Below are positions 28,436-64,000 of a DNA stretch of 64,000 nt, piece by piece. The translations under genes were made by a program, and so were the position numbers. Every line of letters begins with the position of its first letter. Positions within the stretch are counted from its first letter, which is position 1. Under the pieces are notes generated by a model. That model ran no database searches. It was given only the letters and a program-made list of their open reading frames with translations, and was not told where the DNA came from. Source of the stretch: Tetramitus jugosus (lineage: Eukaryota > Heterolobosea > Eutetramitea > Acrasida > Vahlkampfiidae); NCBI GenBank assembly GCA_937625935.1, contig OW569375.1:401874-465873 (forward strand), written 5' to 3'.

Positions 28436-29313
28436 ATGGCCACCCAACAACAACAACAAGCTAAACCAACTGCTGAATACCTGTACAAAATCCTTGTCGT
28501 TGGTGATATAGGTACTGGAAAAACGAGTATCATCAAACGTTATGTTCACAACATTTTCTCTGGTAGTTACAAATCCACTGTATGTCATCAAACTTGTGTT
28601 TTTTCAACATTTTCAAATTTGTAAGCTTTTGAGTGTCTACTGACAAAAATTAAAAATATGATGATTTATTGACCTATCCATTTCTATACAGATTGGTGTT
28701 GATTTTGCACTCAAAGTTCTTCAATGGGACAATCAAACTGTGATTCGATTGCAATTGTGGGATATTGCTGTATGTATTCATCATTTCTCATCATCTCTCA
28801 TCTCTCATCGTTCACACTGTTTTCTCATGTTCGCTCTTGATGACTCACACACATACACAAACAACACAATAACAGGGACAAGAGAGATTCGGTAACATGA
28901 CAAGAGTGTATTATAAGGAAGCTGTGGGTGCGTTGGTAGTGTTTGACATTACTCGTCCACCAACATTTGACGCTGTTTTGAAATGGAAGAGCGATATTGA
29001 ACACAAGGTATTCCTGCCTGATGAGAGACCTATTCCTTGTGTCCTATTGGCCAACAAGTGTGACTTGGCCAATGCAATCAACAAGTCTCAAGAAGAGATG
29101 AACAGTTATTGTGCAGAGAGTGGATTTGCTGGTTGGTTCGAAACGAGTGCCAAAGATTGCAAGAACATTGAAGAAGCAGTCAAATTTTTAGTGGAGAAGA
29201 TTTTGGAGAATCATGTGGAGATGAATCAAGCAAACAATAGTGATGCTTTGAATTTGAATGATGTGCAACAAAATTCATCTGCTGAGAAGCCAAAGGGTGG
29301 ATGCTGTGGTTAA
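28436..29313 (+). CDS. RAB32: Rab32-type small GTPase
   Basis: Three exons, 28436-28579, 28692-28769 and 28876-29313, with introns of 112 and 106 nt (both GTATGT donors), giving 219 residues. P-loop GDIGTGKT (residues 23-30), switch I IGVDFALK, switch II WDIAGQERFGNMTRVYY, NKCD and SAK guanine motifs are intact. IGVDFALK plus the FGNMTRVYYKEA stretch is the Rab32/Rab38 signature. The C-terminus has a CC-containing prenylation tail (GGCCG). Rab32-family proteins direct traffic to lysosome-related organelles and mitochondria. The start is the ATG at 28436, not the GTG at 28430. Confidence 0.9.
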
Positions 29314-49412: not shown

Positions 49413-49621
49413 TGAGGCGAGTGTGCAATCTCTTGGCAATGTTGTCAAACGTTCTTGTAAATCTATCTATCCTTTGCAACACATCATCCTTGTTAACTGA
49501 TTTGTTAAAAAGAAACATATTGTCTCTGGCTTTGAATTGCCTGTAGTCCATATGATCTGCTCTCACAATCGAAAACACAATTTGATCAATTCGAAAGCTT
49601 ACACAACAAAACAAGATCAAA

Positions 49622-50387
49622 ATGAGTGAAACACAAAGAGTTTGGTTAATCACAGGTACTTCTTCTGGATTCGGTAGAGAATTCGTTCGCACCATCCTTA
49701 ATCGTGGTGACAAGGTTATTGCTACTGCCAGAGACTTAAGCAAAATTCAAGATTTGGCCGACGCAGGAGCTCACACTCTGCGTCTTGACGTAACAAGTGG
49801 TCTTCCTGCTCTGACAACCATTATGGAAGAAGCCATCAAGGTTTATGGACGTATTGATGTTCTGATCAATAATGCTGCTCTTGTCGTACATGGCACCATT
49901 GAAGATGTTTCACCTGAAGAAACATTTAAACAATTTGATACAATTGTGTTTGGTTTGTTGAACACGACGAGAGCTGTATTGCCACATATGCGTGCTCGTA
50001 AAAGTGGTACAATTGTGATGATTGGATCAATTGGAGGATTTAGAGGCACATCTCGGTATAAAGGTATTGTTGGTTGAACCGGGTTATTTTAGAACTTCGC
50101 TGTTAGCTCCACAGAACATGTCATCTGCGGAGAATAGACTTGCTGATTATGATCAAGTTTACAAGGCTGTGAATCTTGAATCTGTGCACTCAAAGCAGCC
50201 AGGTGATCCTAAAAAACTGGCAGAAAGAGTGGTTGACGTAGTGACTGGAACTGGTGCAGAGGGAAGAGAGATGCCCTTCAGATTACCATTGGGTACCGAT
50301 GCGTTTTCATATGTACTGGACAAGTGTGACGAGGTGAAAAAACAGATTGAACCGTGGGAAGATGTCATTAAACGCACAGATTTCTAA
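49622..50387 (+). pseudogene. Short-chain dehydrogenase/reductase lacking active-site segment
   Basis: The classical SDR fold is visible up to GTIVMIGSIGGF (about 49622-50045): Rossmann TGTSSGFG (residues 11-18), a NADP-type downstream motif and NNAA. The C-terminal part begins as HLGIKVLLVEPGYFRTSL in a different frame and runs to 50387. The usual YxxxK catalytic stretch of about 38 residues between GSxGG and VEPG is missing, and the frame changes at the junction (about 50040-50070). So the gene has an internal deletion with a frameshift and would not be an active SDR. The substrate cannot be inferred. It lies directly before the Panacea-TPR gene in the same orientation. Confidence 0.72.
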
Positions 50388-50735
50388 GGTCAAACGGGTT
50401 TCACAGTGTGAGTGTTGGTCCAGCGACGTTCTTGCATTGAGGCAACAAGACCATCTGAATTTCATCTGCTCGAACTATTACAATCAAAATTCACCAACTG
50501 GTGATGTACAGTATTTCAGTTGCGACATTGATTTATTCGGCCTGTGTTTGAAGTTAAAGCATAACTCTCAAATATGTGTGGGTGATCATTACATTCAGCT
50601 AGACTGGAACTTCCAGATCCTGACAATGCCTTGAACGGTTGGGATGTGTTTTTGAGAACCACGATTTGTAGTGTAACGTTTTCCAGTTTTTTGTTTACGA
50701 AAAAACATAGTGAACTTCGAAAAAAATCACTAAGA

Positions 50736-52304
50736 ATGGCTTTTGAAGTAATCGATGTAGCCAGGTACATCTTGGAAACTGAAACCACACTGCCACCCAT
50801 CAAACTTCAGAACTTGTGTTTTTACACTCAATGCTTCCACTTGGTTATTAGGGGTGCTCCTCTATTTGATGGTGATTTCGAAAAATGGAAAGATGGACCT
50901 GTTCATTATTGTACTTGGAAGACTTTGCGTCCATTCTGCTCCAATTATTGTATCTATGACATATCAGATGTTGATTTTCCTGGTGATTCTTCCAAAATAC
51001 CCAGTCAAGATAAAGATTTTATCAAGGCAGTCGTTCAACAGTTTAAGAACAATTCGTGCAGACAACTCTCAAAACGTACTCATGACGAGGATCCATGGAT
51101 AAACGTTCATTATAATGAAACTATCGAAAAGCAAAGTATGAAAGACTTCTATAGCACAAATGATCAGGCTATGATCGATCTTGTGGGATGTTTATGTTTC
51201 ATTGGTGATGATAGTTTGAAAAAAGACATTGTCGTGGCAGTACAGCAATACATCACACGAACCAATGGTTCGTTCTTTGACATTTACGTTTCAATAGTCG
51301 ACAAACAACAGGACCCGGAAAACAATTTATCAAGCGAATTCCAAAAGTGGAGAAAACAAAGTCAAGTAGATGCACTTGTCTGTAAATTGTTTATGCCTGC
51401 AGAACTAGTGACACTCGATCGGTTCAACTCGTACTATAAAATTCCATCGATTATCGATAGGGTTCAAATCTGTGCTAAGGCTAAGAACCCACTCGCGCAA
51501 TACCATTTGCACGTTTTCATGAAATCTTATCTTTATAACTTACTCCAGGGTAATAAGGATGAAGATTCTGATGACGACGTTGTACCAGAGAAGTATCAAG
51601 CGATAAAAAAGTTTGTTGATGAACTTTATAGTGACTGCAACTCAGTGAAGCTCACTGACGCAGAAAATCTCTTCGAAGCAGGTTGTTTGATGTGGCTCTT
51701 GTTCAGAAGACCTGAAGCGAAGCAAGCATTTGAAAAAGCAAATACAACTGAGGCATTCTATACACTTGGTGAATTGTATAAGAACAAAGAATATTACTTG
51801 AAAGCCCTTCAAATTAATCCTAATAATTTTAAGGCAAACGCTCGATTACTCGAATGCGAAGGAAAAAGGGATGAAGCCATCGAAGTACTCAAGAAAGTCA
51901 AAGACAATCACCCAGATGCGAATGTTCTCCTGTACTACATGACCTCCGATAAGAAAGAAACCTCTGAAGATAAGATTGAATATCTTGTTGAGGCTGCGAA
52001 AAAATGGAATGATTCAACCTTGTATGAAACAGCTGCCCTTGTATGCCGAAACAAGAGAAAATACAATGAAGCATTCAAATTTTATGAGGAAGCTGCGCGC
52101 ATAGGAAACCCCCACGCTTACTTTGAAATGTGGCAGATGAAGAAGAAACAGCGCAAGGACACAGAGGTTGAAACATACAAAGAAAAAGCTCATGCTGGGG
52201 GGTATTTTTGCTTTGGATATACCGACAAAGATATAGAAATGTATAAAGAGGAAGTATTCACTCTTCTGCAAAATATTCAGAGATTTGTCAAGGAAGGAGT
52301 GTAG
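50736..52304 (+). CDS. Panacea (SocA/GepA-like, DUF4065) domain fused to TPR/Sel1-like repeats
   Basis: A 522-residue intronless gene. Residues about 3-170 fit the Panacea domain (DUF4065; SocA/GepA), a module of prokaryotic and phage antitoxins: FEVIDVARYIL, LPPIKLQNLCFYTQCFHLVI, GAPLFDGDFEKWKDGPV, and later DPWINVHYN. This matches the domain's ALDVAKYI, LKLQKLLYY and GEPLFxEDxEAWxxGPV pattern. A helical region with TPR/Sel1-like units follows (for example AFYTLGELYKNKEYYLKALQI, DEAIEVLKKVKDNHPDAN, KYNEAFKFYEEAARIGNPHAY). An in-frame extension upstream to 50631 has no support. Transfer from bacteria or phage is the simplest source of the domain; a function as an antitoxin here is not shown. 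Confidence 0.8.
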   Translation: MAFEVIDVARYILETETTLPPIKLQNLCFYTQCFHLVIRGAPLFDGDFEKWKDGPVHYCTWKTLRPFCSNYCIYDISDVDFPGDSSKIPSQDKDFIKAVVQQFKNNSCRQLSKRTHDEDPWINVHYNETIEKQSMKDFYSTNDQAMIDLVGCLCFIGDDSLKKDIVVAVQQYITRTNGSFFDIYVSIVDKQQDPENNLSSEFQKWRKQSQVDALVCKLFMPAELVTLDRFNSYYKIPSIIDRVQICAKAKNPLAQYHLHVFMKSYLYNLLQGNKDEDSDDDVVPEKYQAIKKFVDELYSDCNSVKLTDAENLFEAGCLMWLLFRRPEAKQAFEKANTTEAFYTLGELYKNKEYYLKALQINPNNFKANARLLECEGKRDEAIEVLKKVKDNHPDANVLLYYMTSDKKETSEDKIEYLVEAAKKWNDSTLYETAALVCRNKRKYNEAFKFYEEAARIGNPHAYFEMWQMKKKQRKDTEVETYKEKAHAGGYFCFGYTDKDIEMYKEEVFTLLQNIQRFVKEGV

Positions 52305-52420
52305 ATTTCAAGATTCGACAATACTGGTGTCTGTCTCATGAATCGATACTTTGTGATCAGAGAACTGGAAATTACAACATAAATTGGGCTTTGGTTCAAT
52401 TTTACATACAAGTTTATTGT

Positions 52421-52924
52421 TTACCATGGAAGAGTAGATCCATCTATGGCAAAGAATTTTCCACTTCCATCATCTCCAATCAATGCAGCTGTGATTACAC
52501 TCTCGGCAGCATCTTGCACTTTTCTATAACCTTGATGACCATTCAAATCTGGAATTTTAATGGAATAAAATTCAGAGTTTGGAGTGGAACAAGAAGAAGA
52601 GGCTTTACGAAATTTTGAGACAGAATACATTGAAACCACATCAATGCATTGTTTCGCACCATGCTCATTGGGACAAGGCACCAATAAACCCAATTTCCAC
52701 CACATGTTGGACGGCGAACGCACAGTCTCCACTGTGGAGAGAGACAAGGAATTATCCTCTGATGACTCTTCTGACGAAGAAAGTGATGACTCATCATCAT
52801 CTAGTGATTCTGATTTTGAATTGTTGTTATCTGATGACAATTCATCATCAGATGAAACAGCTCCAGAAAATGAACAATATGGAGGGTGCAGCTTTAATAC
52901 ACCAATAATTGGTGAGGAACACAA
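52421..52924 (-). CDS. Ser/Asp-rich hypothetical protein
   Basis: A 167-codon frame on the minus strand. Its C-terminal part (WWKLGLLVPCPNEHG, FYSIKIPDLNGHQGYRKVQDAAESVITAALIGDDGSGKFFAIDG) looks like folded protein. The N-terminal half is an S/D/E-rich run. A competing plus-strand frame at 52584-52934 is open over the same S/D stretch (because the repeated codons read open on both strands), so the coding strand is not certain. I favour the minus strand because of the structured-looking C-terminal part. The function is unknown. It is convergent with the Panacea-TPR gene. Confidence 0.4.
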   Translation of the reverse strand: MCSSPIIGVLKLHPPYCSFSGAVSSDDELSSDNNNSKSESLDDDESSLSSSEESSEDNSLSLSTVETVRSPSNMWWKLGLLVPCPNEHGAKQCIDVVSMYSVSKFRKASSSCSTPNSEFYSIKIPDLNGHQGYRKVQDAAESVITAALIGDDGSGKFFAIDGSTLPW

Positions 52925-52934
52925 TCAAGAGTAG

Positions 52935-53293
52935 TTAAGATCTAGAGCCGAATCTCAGTCTCAAGTCACCAACAACCATCAAGTCTTTAAGTCTTTGCAA
53001 TGCTTTGTTAATGCAACGCACAGTCGCTCTTTATTACTCTTTCCTCTCTTGTCAGTTAGCGTTATGATGGCTTTGTGTGAGGAGTTGAAATGGCAAAGTG
53101 TAAAACAAAATTTGACCTAGTTACATCGATGTTGGAAGACATAACACCAGACAGACAAACGAAGAACTTACTATCTGCATATGACAACATTTGTCTCTAC
53201 TTCTGGGGCAACTAGGTCAAAGATTGGTAACTTGCAATACTCTGTTTCTTGATATTGAATTAAAACAAAAGCCAGGTCAAGACCAACAAGAGA
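52935..53293. other. Intergenic region with a small inverted repeat and short frame
   Basis: 359 bases. A 41-codon frame at 53090-53215 reads protein-like (LVTSMLEDITPDRQTKNLLS) and is framed by a 12-bp inverted repeat, TTTGACCTAGTT (53111-53122) and AACTAGGTCAAA (53210-53221). It could be a gene remnant or a very small MITE-like element. Confidence 0.35.
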
Positions 53294-54265
53294 CTAATCC
53301 GCTCTGCTATTAATACCATCTTTGACTTTGACATAGCACAAGTAAGTATATGTCAGAGGTTCTTCCAACAGCTCTGGATACTTCTTTGCAATCTCTTCAT
53401 TGGTAAACAATGGTTGAATGTTTGAAAGCTCTTCGTGCTTTTCCCTCATGCTCATAGATCTTGCAGATTCGAACACTTTATCGCATAGTGGTGGTATTTC
53501 TTGATATGTCTGCAACATGTTTTTCCAGAAGTAGTATGCACTCAAATGCTCATCCCACCTCCTTTTTACCTGAGTGCGACCAAAGTCATCTGGCACTTCC
53601 AAGATTGCTAGTGCATCTCCTCCTTTAACAAAATTAGAGTTTGAACCAAAACTACTGTCAAACTTTGGCCAATGTCTGTGGAAGATCCAATTAAATGAAT
53701 AATTGTCTCCAGAGAACGCTGGATAATTATCCTCAAATATGTAATGCTTAATGTTGTATCGATACAATCCTTGCCACACTCTCTTAGAGGCAGATTGATG
53801 GTCATCCATAAATGCAAGGATTTGATCAGCTGGAACTCTTTTTGCATCCTTGTGGATAGTAGGATTACTTTCTGTTGTATCTTCATAGAAGATCCATTCT
53901 GGAAGATTGTCAAAGTCCATGAACTGTGAATTGGTCAGAAATATTTGAGTAATACCCTTGTCCTCTCTCTTCACATTTGTACTATGGGGATCCAAGGATA
54001 CGAGCCTACTTCCAGGTTCCAATGCCTCAGCAATGATCCAAGTACTCACACCCCTGAACACTCCAGACTCAATGACCATTCTCGGTTTGAGTTTCTTTAC
54101 CACTGCCCATGTTGCAAAGATGTGAGGAACAGTCATTCCACCCCTACCATTCACATTGTCACCCAACATGGCCTTGGTTCTTGGAAATCGTTTGTACACG
54201 TTTATAAATTCATCAAACATGCTTCTTAGTTCATGTCGAGTGTTAAACAATGGTGTACCAACCAC
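53294..54265 (-). CDS. Class I SAM-methyltransferase-like protein, probably 5'-truncated
   Basis: A minus-strand frame whose first 15 codons have no ATG; the frame stays open to about 54334, and the first internal ATG is at 54220. It contains VIESGVFRGVSTWIIAEAL (a glycine-rich SAM-binding motif, with E in the ES position) and VSLDPHS, typical of the CmcI/rhamnosyl methyltransferase-like family, then MDDHQSASKRVWQGLYRYNIKHYIFEDNYPAFSGD. The catalytic role is unknown. Its 5' end and any signal or anchor are missing, and a transposon edge lies only about 100 bases upstream (54439). I call it truncated; an unseen upstream exon inside the element is unlikely. Confidence 0.6.
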   Translation of the reverse strand: MVGTPLFNTRHELRSMFDEFINVYKRFPRTKAMLGDNVNGRGGMTVPHIFATWAVVKKLKPRMVIESGVFRGVSTWIIAEALEPGSRLVSLDPHSTNVKREDKGITQIFLTNSQFMDFDNLPEWIFYEDTTESNPTIHKDAKRVPADQILAFMDDHQSASKRVWQGLYRYNIKHYIFEDNYPAFSGDNYSFNWIFHRHWPKFDSSFGSNSNFVKGGDALAILEVPDDFGRTQVKRRWDEHLSAYYFWKNMLQTYQEIPPLCDKVFESARSMSMREKHEELSNIQPLFTNEEIAKKYPELLEEPLTYTYLCYVKVKDGINSRAD

Positions 54266-54484: not shown

Positions 54485-56584
54485 TTACCACGTTTTGTGG
54501 TGGAAGGCGGTATCTAGTAGTGCATATCCATCAGTTGTTGTGATCAAATCACCAACTCTAAATGTTATATTCTTGTATGAAGCAGTTCTGAAGGACTTAA
54601 TAGATGTCGTAGGTGATCTTGCACAATCTGAACATACTCTAGCTTTCAGTTGATCTGTGAGAGAGATGGAATCTTTCAGAACCAGATCATTATCATTCAA
54701 TTGGTCCATTGTTGCCATATGCTTGAGAGCTTTGTACAGGATTGTTTTGGCATCATTGCGGTTATTGGTGTTAGTCAGCAGACGCTTCATTAGTTGATGC
54801 TTGGCTTCATATCTCATACAATATATACCAACAAGTGGACCAAATGCTCTTATCGCTTCAACAAAATGCAGTCTGTAATGGGACTTGGGACAGAATGAAT
54901 CTGGATAAGCTTTGGCCCACAAGTCCATATGCGCTTTCACCAATAGGTCAAGTTTTGTGAGATCTGAATCAGTGAATGACCATTGCAGAGTGATCTGCAA
55001 GTACTCCAAGTGCTTCATCAGTGATCTGAATTGAATACTATCTTTGATGTCTGACCATGCAGATAATTGAGTACAAATGAATGGCATTAATGTTGAAAGT
55101 GAATACACCTGTCCTGCTGTTAACTCATTCGAACTTGGATTATTGTAGAACTTGTCTGAAACATCTGGTGGAACAAACGATTTCAGATCAAGCAGTTGTC
55201 TCCACGTCATTAAAGCATTATTGAATTGATCAATTGTAAACCACCCATCTGTGACACCATGTCTCAGTAGGAAGCACAACTCGCGTTTTAACTCTCCTTC
55301 AAATTCAGTATGCATCAGATCTGGTGGTAATTTAGTGATGACGTGGAAGAAAGGTATGTCACTCAAGACAGAGTACTTCTGGACACCATACATAGATTTC
55401 AATCCTTCCACATTACATCCACCCTCTATAGCTTCAACAATTCTGTCGTGGATTTCAGGTGTTCGAAGAATGAACTTTGTCTGATCAGTAGATCCTATAT
55501 CACTACGATGCAAGAAACAATGTCTGCAGAATCGCTTCATATTAGAAAAAGAGGTGGAGAATCCACCTAGCTCATGAGCTGCTTTGTGATCAAGCAATGC
55601 AACAACAACTTGTCCTCTGAACCTTCTATAACTGTTGTTGTATATCTTTATGTCAACTCCATCAGAAGCGAATGGTATGAATTGTGACAATATGGGTTGT
55701 ATTACTCCATCCCCAGCACTTTTGATCAGCTTTGATGGGATTGCAGCCATCGGCAATATGTTGTGCAGCTGACACCTGGTGTATGTTGGAAAATTGCCGA
55801 GATTACAGTAGATCATCATGTATTCTGTACGATCCTTCAAATAGCATTCATCTAAATACAATATGAACTGTAGAGCATCCTTATACTTCTGAAAGAACTG
55901 CGACTCTCGAACAATTGATCCATCACATATATCATTGTATATTCCAGGTTCTGATGCACGATCTGCAGATAAATCTATCCAATCTAAATTCTTCTTCTTG
56001 TTGAATAATGCTGTCAGCAGCCCTTTTAAGGGTAGATAATATATCTTCTGACCAGCATAAGTTGCTTCTTCTGGATGACATTCAAAGAATCGCCTTGCGA
56101 TTTCTTCATCTCGTTTCTTATCATTTAATAAGATACTGATATTAGGTATGCAATTGACAATATTAGCTTCAGTTTCTGCATCAAAGTTAGTAGCAATACT
56201 CTTGATACTTTCATATAAAAGACGAAATGTTTCATCTATTGATGTACGTGGTACTTTATGCTGTGTTTCTGATACCATTGCGTGCTTCAGAAACTTGTCT
56301 AATAATTCATTTTGTATCTTTGTGTGATTCATGGATGTTGTAAGCATAATATCATCGGTCATACTTTGGCTACCAAACATTTCATAACTGTCATTCATCA
56401 TATTATCGTGTTCACTATCCATCATATTGCTTTGACCATCAAATGAATCAGGCACTGCGCACTGTGTAACATTGCTGTTGTGATTGTCTCTTGAGTGCTT
56501 CTGCTCATGTTTGTATCTCCCACTACGAGTGCAGAAAGGTAATTGACAATATCTGCATTCGTATTGTTTGCTAACTCGTGGCAT
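54485..56584 (-). CDS. Transposase-like protein with C2H2 finger (CACTA/Plavaka-type)
   Basis: About 700 residues from the Met at 56584 (open to 56698). An N-terminal C2H2 finger (YECRYCQLPFCTRSGRYKHEQKH) is followed by a D/N/M-rich spacer and a large conserved domain with FILYLDECYLKDRTEYMM, QVVVALLDHKAAHELGGF and the FCRHCFLHR motif, which is characteristic of the EnSpm-type transposase group seen in metazoan CACTA-like elements. It ends near the left terminal repeat. Intronless in this stretch. It is transcribed divergently from the plus-strand element genes, with a short bidirectional promoter region between 56585 and 56720. Confidence 0.75.
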   Translation of the reverse strand: MPRVSKQYECRYCQLPFCTRSGRYKHEQKHSRDNHNSNVTQCAVPDSFDGQSNMMDSEHDNMMNDSYEMFGSQSMTDDIMLTTSMNHTKIQNELLDKFLKHAMVSETQHKVPRTSIDETFRLLYESIKSIATNFDAETEANIVNCIPNISILLNDKKRDEEIARRFFECHPEEATYAGQKIYYLPLKGLLTALFNKKKNLDWIDLSADRASEPGIYNDICDGSIVRESQFFQKYKDALQFILYLDECYLKDRTEYMMIYCNLGNFPTYTRCQLHNILPMAAIPSKLIKSAGDGVIQPILSQFIPFASDGVDIKIYNNSYRRFRGQVVVALLDHKAAHELGGFSTSFSNMKRFCRHCFLHRSDIGSTDQTKFILRTPEIHDRIVEAIEGGCNVEGLKSMYGVQKYSVLSDIPFFHVITKLPPDLMHTEFEGELKRELCFLLRHGVTDGWFTIDQFNNALMTWRQLLDLKSFVPPDVSDKFYNNPSSNELTAGQVYSLSTLMPFICTQLSAWSDIKDSIQFRSLMKHLEYLQITLQWSFTDSDLTKLDLLVKAHMDLWAKAYPDSFCPKSHYRLHFVEAIRAFGPLVGIYCMRYEAKHQLMKRLLTNTNNRNDAKTILYKALKHMATMDQLNDNDLVLKDSISLTDQLKARVCSDCARSPTTSIKSFRTASYKNITFRVGDLITTTDGYALLDTAFHHKTW

Positions 56585-56720
56585 GTGATGTTTACTGTAC
56601 TTGATGAATTGATATTTCTTATCTCCGGAAATTTCTGTGGAACCCGATTTCCGATTCACAAACGTCGCAGAACAACAGCACAACACTTGAACATACATAA
56701 AGGATACTTGAACTCAAAGG

Positions 56721-62162: not shown

Positions 62163-62180
62163 TTTGGGTTTGGGTTTGGG
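62163..62180 (+). repeat. Short interstitial TTTGGG array
   Basis: Three perfect TTTGGG units (18 bases) about 1 kb proximal to the telomere, in the same orientation. Possible scar of an earlier chromosome end or of telomere-related repair. Confidence 0.8.
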
Positions 62181-62405
62181 TTGTCACATATCGGCTAGCC
62201 AAGACTGGCTGAATACAGTCAACTGTACGTTGTAAAGGTTGTTTTTGTATTCTCCGTGGTTTGAAATGTTCAACTTAAGCTTTGTATGGAAAAACTCACT
62301 ATAGATTCTGAACTATCCCCCAAACTGTGATATGGAGTTGGGTTTTGAACTCGGAAAACCCAAATCTCTATGAGCTATTGACTGATGAGTCGCGAAAAAA
62401 TAGGC

Positions 62406-62721
62406 GGAACCAGCCATTTCGGCCTAGAAAAGCTTTTTTACAGAGGAACTATCTGGTTCGGCCTAAAAGTTGGACTCACAAGCGGAACCAGCTGGTTCCG
62501 CCTAAAAGAGCTTTTTTTCAGAGGAACTATCTGGTTCCGCCTAAATTTTCGACTTTACAGAGGAACCAGCTGGTTCCGCCTAAAACTTGACTTTGTCAGT
62601 GGAACTCTCTGGTTCCGCCTGTAATATGACTTTTTCAGTGGAACCAGCTGGTTCCACCTAAATGCACACATGTCTAAGAGGAACCAGATAGTTCCGCATA
62701 AAAAGATTTCTACAGAGGAAC
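62406..62721. repeat. 39-bp tandem repeat with palindromic GGAACCAGCTGGTTCC core
   Basis: Nine units starting at 62406, 62445, 62484, 62523, 62562, 62601, 62640, 62680 and 62717 (spacing 39, one of 40, one of 37). Each contains a short core such as GGAACCAGCTGGTTCC, which is self-complementary, flanked by CCTAAAA and TTTTTCAGA-like spacers. Because the period is 13 codons and the core is palindromic, open frames with a repeated RNQLVPPK-type peptide appear on both strands; I take these to be incidental. It is a subtelomeric minisatellite, about 500 bases from the telomere. Confidence 0.85.
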
Positions 62722-63199: not shown

Positions 63200-64000
63200 T
63201 TGGGTTTGGGTTTGGGTTTGGGTTTGGGTTTGGGTTTGGGTTTGGGTTTGGGTTTGGGTTTGGGTTTGGGTTTGGGTTTGGGTTTGGGTTTGGGTTTGGG
63301 TTTGGGTTTGGGTTTGGGTTTGGGTTTGGGTTTGGGTTTGGGTTTGGGTTTGGGTTTGGGTTTGGGTTTGGGTTTGGGTTTGGGTTTGGGTTTGGGTTTG
63401 GGTTTGGGTTTGGGTTTGGGTTTGGGTTTGGGTTTGGGTTTGGGTTTGGGTTTGGGTTTGGGTTTGGGTTTGGGTTTGGGTTTGGGTTTGGGTTTGGGTT
63501 TGGGTTTGGGTTTGGGTTTGGGTTTGGGTTTGGGTTTGGGTTTGGGTTTGGGTTTGGGTTTGGGTTTGGGTTTGGGTTTGGGTTTGGGTTTGGGTTTGGG
63601 TTTGGGTTTGGGTTTGGGTTTGGGTTTGGGTTTGGGTTTGGGTTTGGGTTTGGGTTTGGGTTTGGGTTTGGGTTTGGGTTTGGGTTTGGGTTTGGGTTTG
63701 GGTTTGGGTTTGGGTTTGGGTTTGGGTTTGGGTTTGGGTTTGGGTTTGGGTTTGGGTTTGGGTTTGGGTTTGGGTTTGGGTTTGGGTTTGGGTTTGGGTT
63801 TGGGTTTGGGTTTGGGTTTGGGTTTGGGTTTGGGTTTGGGTTTGGGTTTGGGTTTGGGTTTGGGTTTGGGTTTGGGTTTGGGTTTGGGTTTGGGTTTGGG
63901 TTTGGGTTTGGGTTTGGGTTTGGGTTTGGGTTTGGGTTTGGGTTTGGGTTTGGGTTTGGGTTTGGGTTTGGGTTTGGGTTTGGGTTTGGGTTTGGGTTTG
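63200..64000 (+). repeat. Telomere, (TTTGGG)n
   Basis: Perfect TTTGGG hexamers run from about 63200 to the end of the window (about 133 units), with the G-rich strand 5'->3' toward the end, as expected for a right-hand chromosome end. No variant unit is seen. The repeat differs from TTAGGG and TTTAGGG. Its length is limited by the window. Confidence 0.9.

Follow-up and report, generated by a model that had tools for sequence, protein, structure and literature searches.

The antitoxins known as PanA carry the Panacea domain (PF13274, also named DUF4065, SocA or GepA), whose fold is helical with a small three-strand sheet. In a survey from 2022 (Kurata) the domain was reported from 27 bacterial and three archaeal phyla and from 17 phages, and by the account given there it is apparently absent in eukaryotes: no genuine eukaryotic Panacea was recognized, and the sole earlier eukaryotic case, that of the Pharaoh ant, was judged to be contamination (PMC8832971). 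Panacea antitoxins were found to partner many unrelated toxins, Fic/Doc included, and to form complexes with them (PMC8832971, PMC10440598). For most PanAs the results fit neutralisation via direct binding, and each PanA is described as having a natural specificity for its own toxin (PMC8832971). SocA delivers SocB to ClpXP, and ClpXP and Lon were reported to be dispensable for neutralisation by the PanAs tested (PMC8832971). In one PanA, single substitutions in the GPV signature were harmless and a double one abolished neutralisation (PMC8832971). In a follow-up from 2023 Panacea is seen as binding directly and as serving as a platform to which further domains are added, and its functional role is said to need more work; for one PanA the predicted contact with Doc was placed in C-terminal helices, outside Panacea itself (PMC10440598).

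The gene described here belongs to Tetramitus jugosus, a soil heterolobosean amoeba; Tetramitus feeds on bacteria (PMC11106597). It lies in a stretch of 64,000 nucleotides at the end of chromosome 32 (the window), to which the coordinates below refer unless a contig is named. The product shares with the PanA antitoxins the whole domain, the GPV signature, the conserved helix at about residues 23-32 and the T-H-x-E-x-P-W motif, but it differs from them in being encoded by a eukaryotic nuclear gene, in its long TPR-type C-terminal half, in having no recognizable adjacent toxin and in being at most 41% identical to any relative found. SocA, the type VI antitoxin of Caulobacter, belongs to the same domain family, and the NCBIfam SocA model (NF047745) matches the T. 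jugosus protein with E 3.8e-11, yet the 43 bits of this match do not reach the equivalog cut-off of 190 and the T. jugosus protein has a TPR arm. The closest single relative among the best 80 of 333 viral-contig relatives, from IMGVR_UViG_2744054502, is 41% identical over residues 5-140, whereas it is a protein of 142 aa that consists of the domain only. TPR-repeat proteins share with the C-terminal half a TPR_2 match over the cut-off and similarity to engineered TPR chains in the PDB; unlike in such proteins the repeats are few and divergent, and the whole C-terminal half has no relative in the phage and plasmid collections.

Architecture and conserved residues

The gene is a single uninterrupted open reading frame (50736-52304, forward strand) of 522 aa, from ATG to stop, which requires no intron (Table 1). 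The reading frame that is common to the copies on chromosomes 32 and 49 starts at this ATG, and indels of 1 and 3 nucleotides lie immediately 5' of it. The start is therefore supported by the second copy.

Table 1. Features of the Panacea-TPR locus in the window (aa, amino acids; SDR, short-chain dehydrogenase)
Feature	Position	Strand	Basis
Panacea-TPR fusion gene, 522 aa, single exon	50736..52304	+	open frame; 93% identical second copy C49:40507-41916
Panacea (SocA/DUF4065) domain, residues 3-144	50742..51167	+	PF13274, PHROG 1281, alignments with 12 and 49 prokaryotic/phage Panaceas
GPV signature motif, residues 54-56	50895..50903	+	alignment; GPV reported as important in a Vibrio PanA (PMC8832971)
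Middle region, residues 146-328	51171..51720	+	no family match
TPR repeats, residues ~331-456 (best repeats 331-364 and 430-456)	51726..52103	+	Pfam, PDB matches, motif scan
SDR1 (short-chain dehydrogenase)	49622..50387	+	77-nt deletion in window copy; intact on chromosome 49
Frame with degraded SDR2 remnant	52421..52924	-	intact SDR2 frame in chromosome-49 block
Telomere, (TTTGGG)n, at chromosome end	63205..63996	+	repeat reading

A preliminary description of the locus had placed a SocA/GepA/DUF4065 (Panacea) domain at residues 3-170 from a series of motifs, VARYIL and PWINVHYN among them, and had proposed a profile search with PF13274. All of the named motifs are found in the translated frame, and the profile search gives 45.7 bits against a cut-off of 25.7 (E 1.4e-11), with residues 24-121 aligned to profile positions 1-112 of 113. 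The PHROG 1281 profile matches residues 3-144 (E 1.6e-24). The domain is confirmed by these two profiles, with its end at about residue 144 instead of 170. None of the PADLOC anti-phage defence models matches the protein at E <= 1, and the sequence search of the PDB found no Panacea chain.

The full protein matches 17 Pfam families at E <= 1, none of which has its best stretch in the middle region (residues 146-328). In the C-terminal part TPR_2 scores 27.9 bits at residues 430-456, above its cut-off of 27.0, and TPR_8 scores 24.8 bits at residues 342-364, slightly below its cut-off of 25.7; all the TPR families besides TPR_2 in the Pfam listing stay below their own cut-offs. The PDB contains engineered TPR proteins that match residues 336-394, the best of them with E 4.5e-11. 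A motif scan with a TPR consensus is further evidence for the repeats at about residues 331-456. The repeats had been described as TPR/Sel1-like, of which the TPR assignment stands with TPR_2; Sel1 was rejected, as it is absent among the 17 families.

The GPV signature is kept at residues 54-56. Eleven of the 13 residues that are invariant in 12 phage, plasmid and bacterial Panaceas are kept as well, the exceptions being Y29, which is replaced by F, and A50, which is replaced by K. Against 49 viral-contig Panaceas, which were picked through a pattern on residues 23-32, the protein keeps 22 of the 25 columns that are at least 90% conserved (16/17 outside residues 23-32). When columns with at least 80% conservation in the same 49 sequences are taken, 25 of 33 are kept (76%), compared with 79% in the viral-contig sequence that keeps the fewest; outside residues 23-32 the count is 19/25, and only two of the 49 viral-contig Panaceas have an equally low or lower one. 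The protein is thus a divergent yet complete member of the family. Position 26 is N in the window copy and K in the chromosome-49 copy, in 49/49 of the viral-contig Panaceas (whose selection pattern admitted K or N at this position) and in 11 of the 12 others, the twelfth having R. The window copy has lost this near-invariant lysine, K26.

Nuclear location, copies and decay

The T. jugosus assembly has 26,348,746 bases in 56 contigs, with 465,873 bases in C32, 419,931 in C43 and 329,988 in C49. In the genome note of strain CCAP 1588/3C the genome is given as 26,350,207 bp in 55 scaffolds, and chromosomes 32, 43 and 49 as 0.47, 0.42 and 0.33 Mb (PMC11106597). It was assembled from HiFi and Hi-C data, from a culture fed with E. 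coli, and reads classed as prokaryotic were removed before the assembly (PMC11106597). The Panacea-TPR gene lies 11 kb from the telomere. As had been stated earlier for this genome, eukaryotic introns are present: a Rab-like frame at about 28500-29310 requires two GT-AG introns, where both the likeness and the introns were read by eye. In codon usage, the Panacea-TPR gene has a correlation of 0.879 with 13 other long open reading frames of the window, which lies inside their own range of 0.671-0.939; for the Panacea part alone, with 145 codons, the correlation is 0.718.

The gene is part of a block, SDR1 - Panacea-TPR - SDR2, that is present at the end of chromosome 32 (49582-52954) and again close to where chromosome 49 starts (C49:36000-45900). 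The decay of the two blocks is reciprocal, as SDR1 is broken in the window copy and the Panacea-TPR gene is shortened in the chromosome-49 copy, where a deletion of 94 nt after residue 464 leaves a frame of 468 aa with the Panacea domain entire. Chromosome 43 retains, at 8.6 kb from its start, only a scrap that corresponds to residues 414-477 and contains two stops. The bacterial SDRs listed (eight matches each) are at most 45% identical to SDR1 and SDR2, and these matches do not reveal the origin of the two genes because SDRs are too common.

Between the window and chromosome-49 copies there are only 42 nucleotide and 27 residue differences over residues 1-464, with dN/dS at 0.57 by Nei-Gojobori and 0.61 by YN00. 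The ratio is about 1 in the Panacea domain, a value that comes from only 13 nucleotide differences, and 0.44 in the TPR part. One indel separates the copies in the 1569 bases of the gene, and five do so in the non-coding 348 bases 5' of it (p 0.001 in a Fisher test that was chosen post hoc); against the upstream block of 1154 bases that includes SDR1, with seven indels, p is 0.012 (also chosen post hoc). The open frame is maintained in the window copy, and the evidence for selection at the level of amino acids is weak.

Relatives of the domain and the search for a toxin

At E <= 0.1, tblastn matched 86 phage records (best E 8e-13, with 30% identity over residues 5-145) and 33 plasmid records, and 18 of the 20 plasmid matches listed are annotated as SocA-domain antitoxins. 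Because of these matches and annotations the Panacea assignment is not a chance one. All of the phage and plasmid matches listed (20 each) finish at or before residue 147. A scan of viral contigs with the single protein as query gave five stretches and no relative; with a domain alignment it gave 333 relatives, and the 80 best of them were taken. The closest of these 80 has 41% identity, a value that no relative found elsewhere exceeds over the domain, and all of them were selected with a single pattern that spans residues 23-32, so that the conservation in this stretch is biased. In these best 80 of 333 frames at most 67 residues follow the match, the maximum being in L082, for which Pfam found Panacea alone. 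The scan of genome contigs gave one relative (L008, 30% identity). Among 392 genomes of the bacterial phylum of L008, with scoring limited to three candidates in each, 30 gave matches; these number 44, and not one extends past residue 149. In the nine bacterial loci that were read at most 53 residues follow the Panacea match, and in the frames of more than 300 aa that were read (L008, L010, L108, L111, L112 and L116) the additional length is N-terminal of the domain.

Residues 146-522 have no match in the phage collection and one, with E 0.9, in the plasmid collection; in the T. jugosus genome they match, besides their own copies, a single place weakly (E 0.0041). Within the phage, plasmid, viral-contig and bacterial collections searched, the fusion was seen only in T. 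jugosus. A search of 5.8 billion protein sequences scored none of its 6380 (full protein), 88 (residues 1-175) and 7172 (alignment) candidates, where the alignment query contained real bacterial and phage Panacea rows whose own records were expected; for this reason none of the three results is taken to indicate absence. The open-access literature matches listed include no report of a eukaryotic Panacea. For the related amoeba Acrasis kona many horizontally acquired genes were described, and antitoxin, Panacea and SocA are not mentioned in the main text of that report (PMC11589745).

A phylogeny with bacterial, phage and other protist proteins had been proposed in the preliminary description. 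The quick tree of 86 rows places the two T. jugosus copies on a long stem (2.13) within a group of nine rows (SH-aLRT 96), with L037 alongside (85). It was built on 148 columns with no bootstrap, and for this reason no donor is named. Apart from the two T. jugosus copies all its rows are prokaryotic or phage; since no other eukaryotic rows are included, the direction of transfer rests on the distribution and not on the tree.

The nearest genes to the Panacea-TPR gene are SDR1, the frame with the SDR2 remnant, an ankyrin protein and a frame without a Pfam match, none of which is recognizable as a toxin, in agreement with the earlier statement that no adjacent bacterial toxin is visible. SDR1 ends 348 nt upstream and the antisense SDR2-remnant frame starts 116 nt downstream. 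The upstream gap contains a single frame of 80 aa or more on the same strand (50347-50634); it stops 101 nt short of the gene, and indels that distinguish the two copies interrupt it. The gene is not half of a recognizable local toxin-antitoxin pair, and this option was rejected; a small toxin without a family match may lie near it. In the whole genome no match was found for PemK, for which controls rang in 3/14 genomes, or for RelA_SpoT, for which they rang in 11/14; in the MqsR search no control rang. The Fic search of the whole genome gave one protein, of 378 aa, on contig C6 (L107:1081-2217; C6:104534-104869), with an HPFTDGNGR motif. Toxins linked to Panacea could be missed by such searches because many of them match no family. 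In the viral contig of the closest single relative (L024), a frame of 69 aa without a Pfam match (L024:3410-3619) overlaps the end of the Panacea gene and is a candidate small partner by position only.

Possible origin and role, and the chromosome-end surroundings

The profile matches, the homologues, the telomeric context and the duplicate on another chromosome support a Panacea and TPR fusion encoded by a nuclear eukaryotic gene without a recognizable neighbouring toxin. From here we infer that capture of the domain from a prokaryote or phage best fits its known distribution, and with moderate confidence we read the protein as a horizontally acquired Panacea domain that, with its TPR-type arm, makes a protein-binding module without a toxin partner, in a copied subtelomeric block. 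A prokaryotic or phage Panacea domain would have entered the Tetramitus lineage and adopted the codon usage of the host, and would have become joined to the TPR-type helical C-terminal half; the fusion lies in a subtelomeric block, which has been duplicated from one chromosome end to another. Today the protein most probably acts by itself as a binder, in which the Panacea core, with its central helix and GPV strand, would grip a protein partner via the surface used by bacterial PanAs. The TPR arm may replace the accessory domains of bacteria as a second arm for binding, either by adding specificity, as the bacterial ZBD and PAD1 extensions do, or by tethering the complex to a host factor. The most attractive class of partners would be the toxins and effectors of bacteria that are met by a bacterivore. 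The reuse as a binding or targeting module, which had been proposed in the preliminary description, is plausible from the nature of both domains.

A serious rival to this reading, although we hold it to be not very likely, is that the gene is a decaying passenger that was acquired horizontally, was copied together with the subtelomeric blocks and is now functionless. This could explain the dN/dS of about 1 in the Panacea domain, the chromosome-49 copy that lacks the C-terminus, the stop-containing scrap on chromosome 43, the replacement of K26 by N and the flanking SDR genes that are broken in the window. Yet 522 codons remain open in the window copy, indels are rare in the gene (1 in 1569 bases vs 5 in 348 upstream), and most of the conserved residues are kept despite an identity of at most 41% over the domain to any relative found. 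Contamination, a misassembly or a chance domain match is an explanation to which we give practically no credence. The Pharaoh ant Panacea was judged to be contamination (PMC8832971) and the T. jugosus culture was fed with E. coli, but prokaryotic-classed reads were removed before assembly (PMC11106597), a telomere is on the same contig, an intron-bearing gene is in the window, and the scores against PF13274 and PHROG 1281 are strong. With a telomere at a distance of 11 kb, and with a truncated copy on one further chromosome and a scrap on another, contamination is very unlikely.

Other options concern what the protein may bind. A defence protein that binds and neutralises toxins or Fic-type effectors of engulfed or intracellular bacteria would be a specific form of the binding-module reading, with which it overlaps, and we regard it as unlikely in this precise form. 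It is favoured by the bacterial diet of Tetramitus, by the retained GPV motif and by the many unrelated toxins, Fic/Doc included, with which Panacea antitoxins pair (PMC8832971, PMC10440598), whereas PanAs are described as cognate-specific (PMC8832971) and the predicted Doc contact of one PanA lies outside Panacea, in C-terminal helices (PMC10440598). An adaptor for proteolysis like Caulobacter SocA, in which Panacea would hold a client and the TPR arm would dock to a chaperone or the ubiquitin system, seems improbable to us. TPR domains frequently serve in chaperone docking, and the SocA model does match (43 bits, E 3.8e-11), although far below its cut-off of 190; SocA itself brings SocB to ClpXP, but the PanAs tested needed neither ClpXP nor Lon (PMC8832971). 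It is highly improbable that the protein serves as antitoxin against a toxin encoded at an unlinked locus, such as the Fic protein on contig C6. Fic proteins are found in eukaryotes in any case, and the one of 378 aa in this genome is on a different chromosome; PemK and RelA_SpoT have no match genome-wide, with controls in 3/14 and 11/14 genomes. Points for such a pairing are the presence of this Fic-domain protein and that Fic/Doc is a known Panacea-linked toxin class (PMC8832971).

As a nuclear Panacea with a new partner domain, the protein extends Panacea to eukaryotes. It is also a natural example of an antitoxin fold that lives without a recognizable toxin, which bears on the role of Panacea itself, a question left open in the follow-up study (PMC10440598). 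The binding-module reading has a bolder version, which we find doubtful as a whole: the protein may be the first genuine nuclear eukaryotic Panacea in the sense of a domesticated, hyperpromiscuous antitoxin domain that is held on a TPR scaffold and acts as an intracellular receptor for bacterial toxins or effectors, which it would neutralise. Binding of bacterial toxins, if it occurs, would make the protein an immunity factor of eukaryotes drawn from bacterial conflict systems.

Some further observations were made on the ends of these chromosomes. Three chromosome ends carry TTTGGG as telomere repeat in place of the common TTAGGG, and C49 and C43 open with the complement of TTTGGG. Subtelomeric repeats that are about 89% identical are common to the ends of chromosome 32 (62176-62695) and chromosome 43 (L117:1562-2080). 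A reverse-strand frame of 737 aa (54485-56698), whose N-terminus by eye resembles a zinc finger, matches no Pfam family and is possibly derived from a mobile element. Between it and the Panacea-TPR gene, at 53294-54265, lies a gene without a Pfam match that is by eye very similar on chromosomes 32 and 49 (L022:8002-9327) and is methyltransferase-like by impression only.
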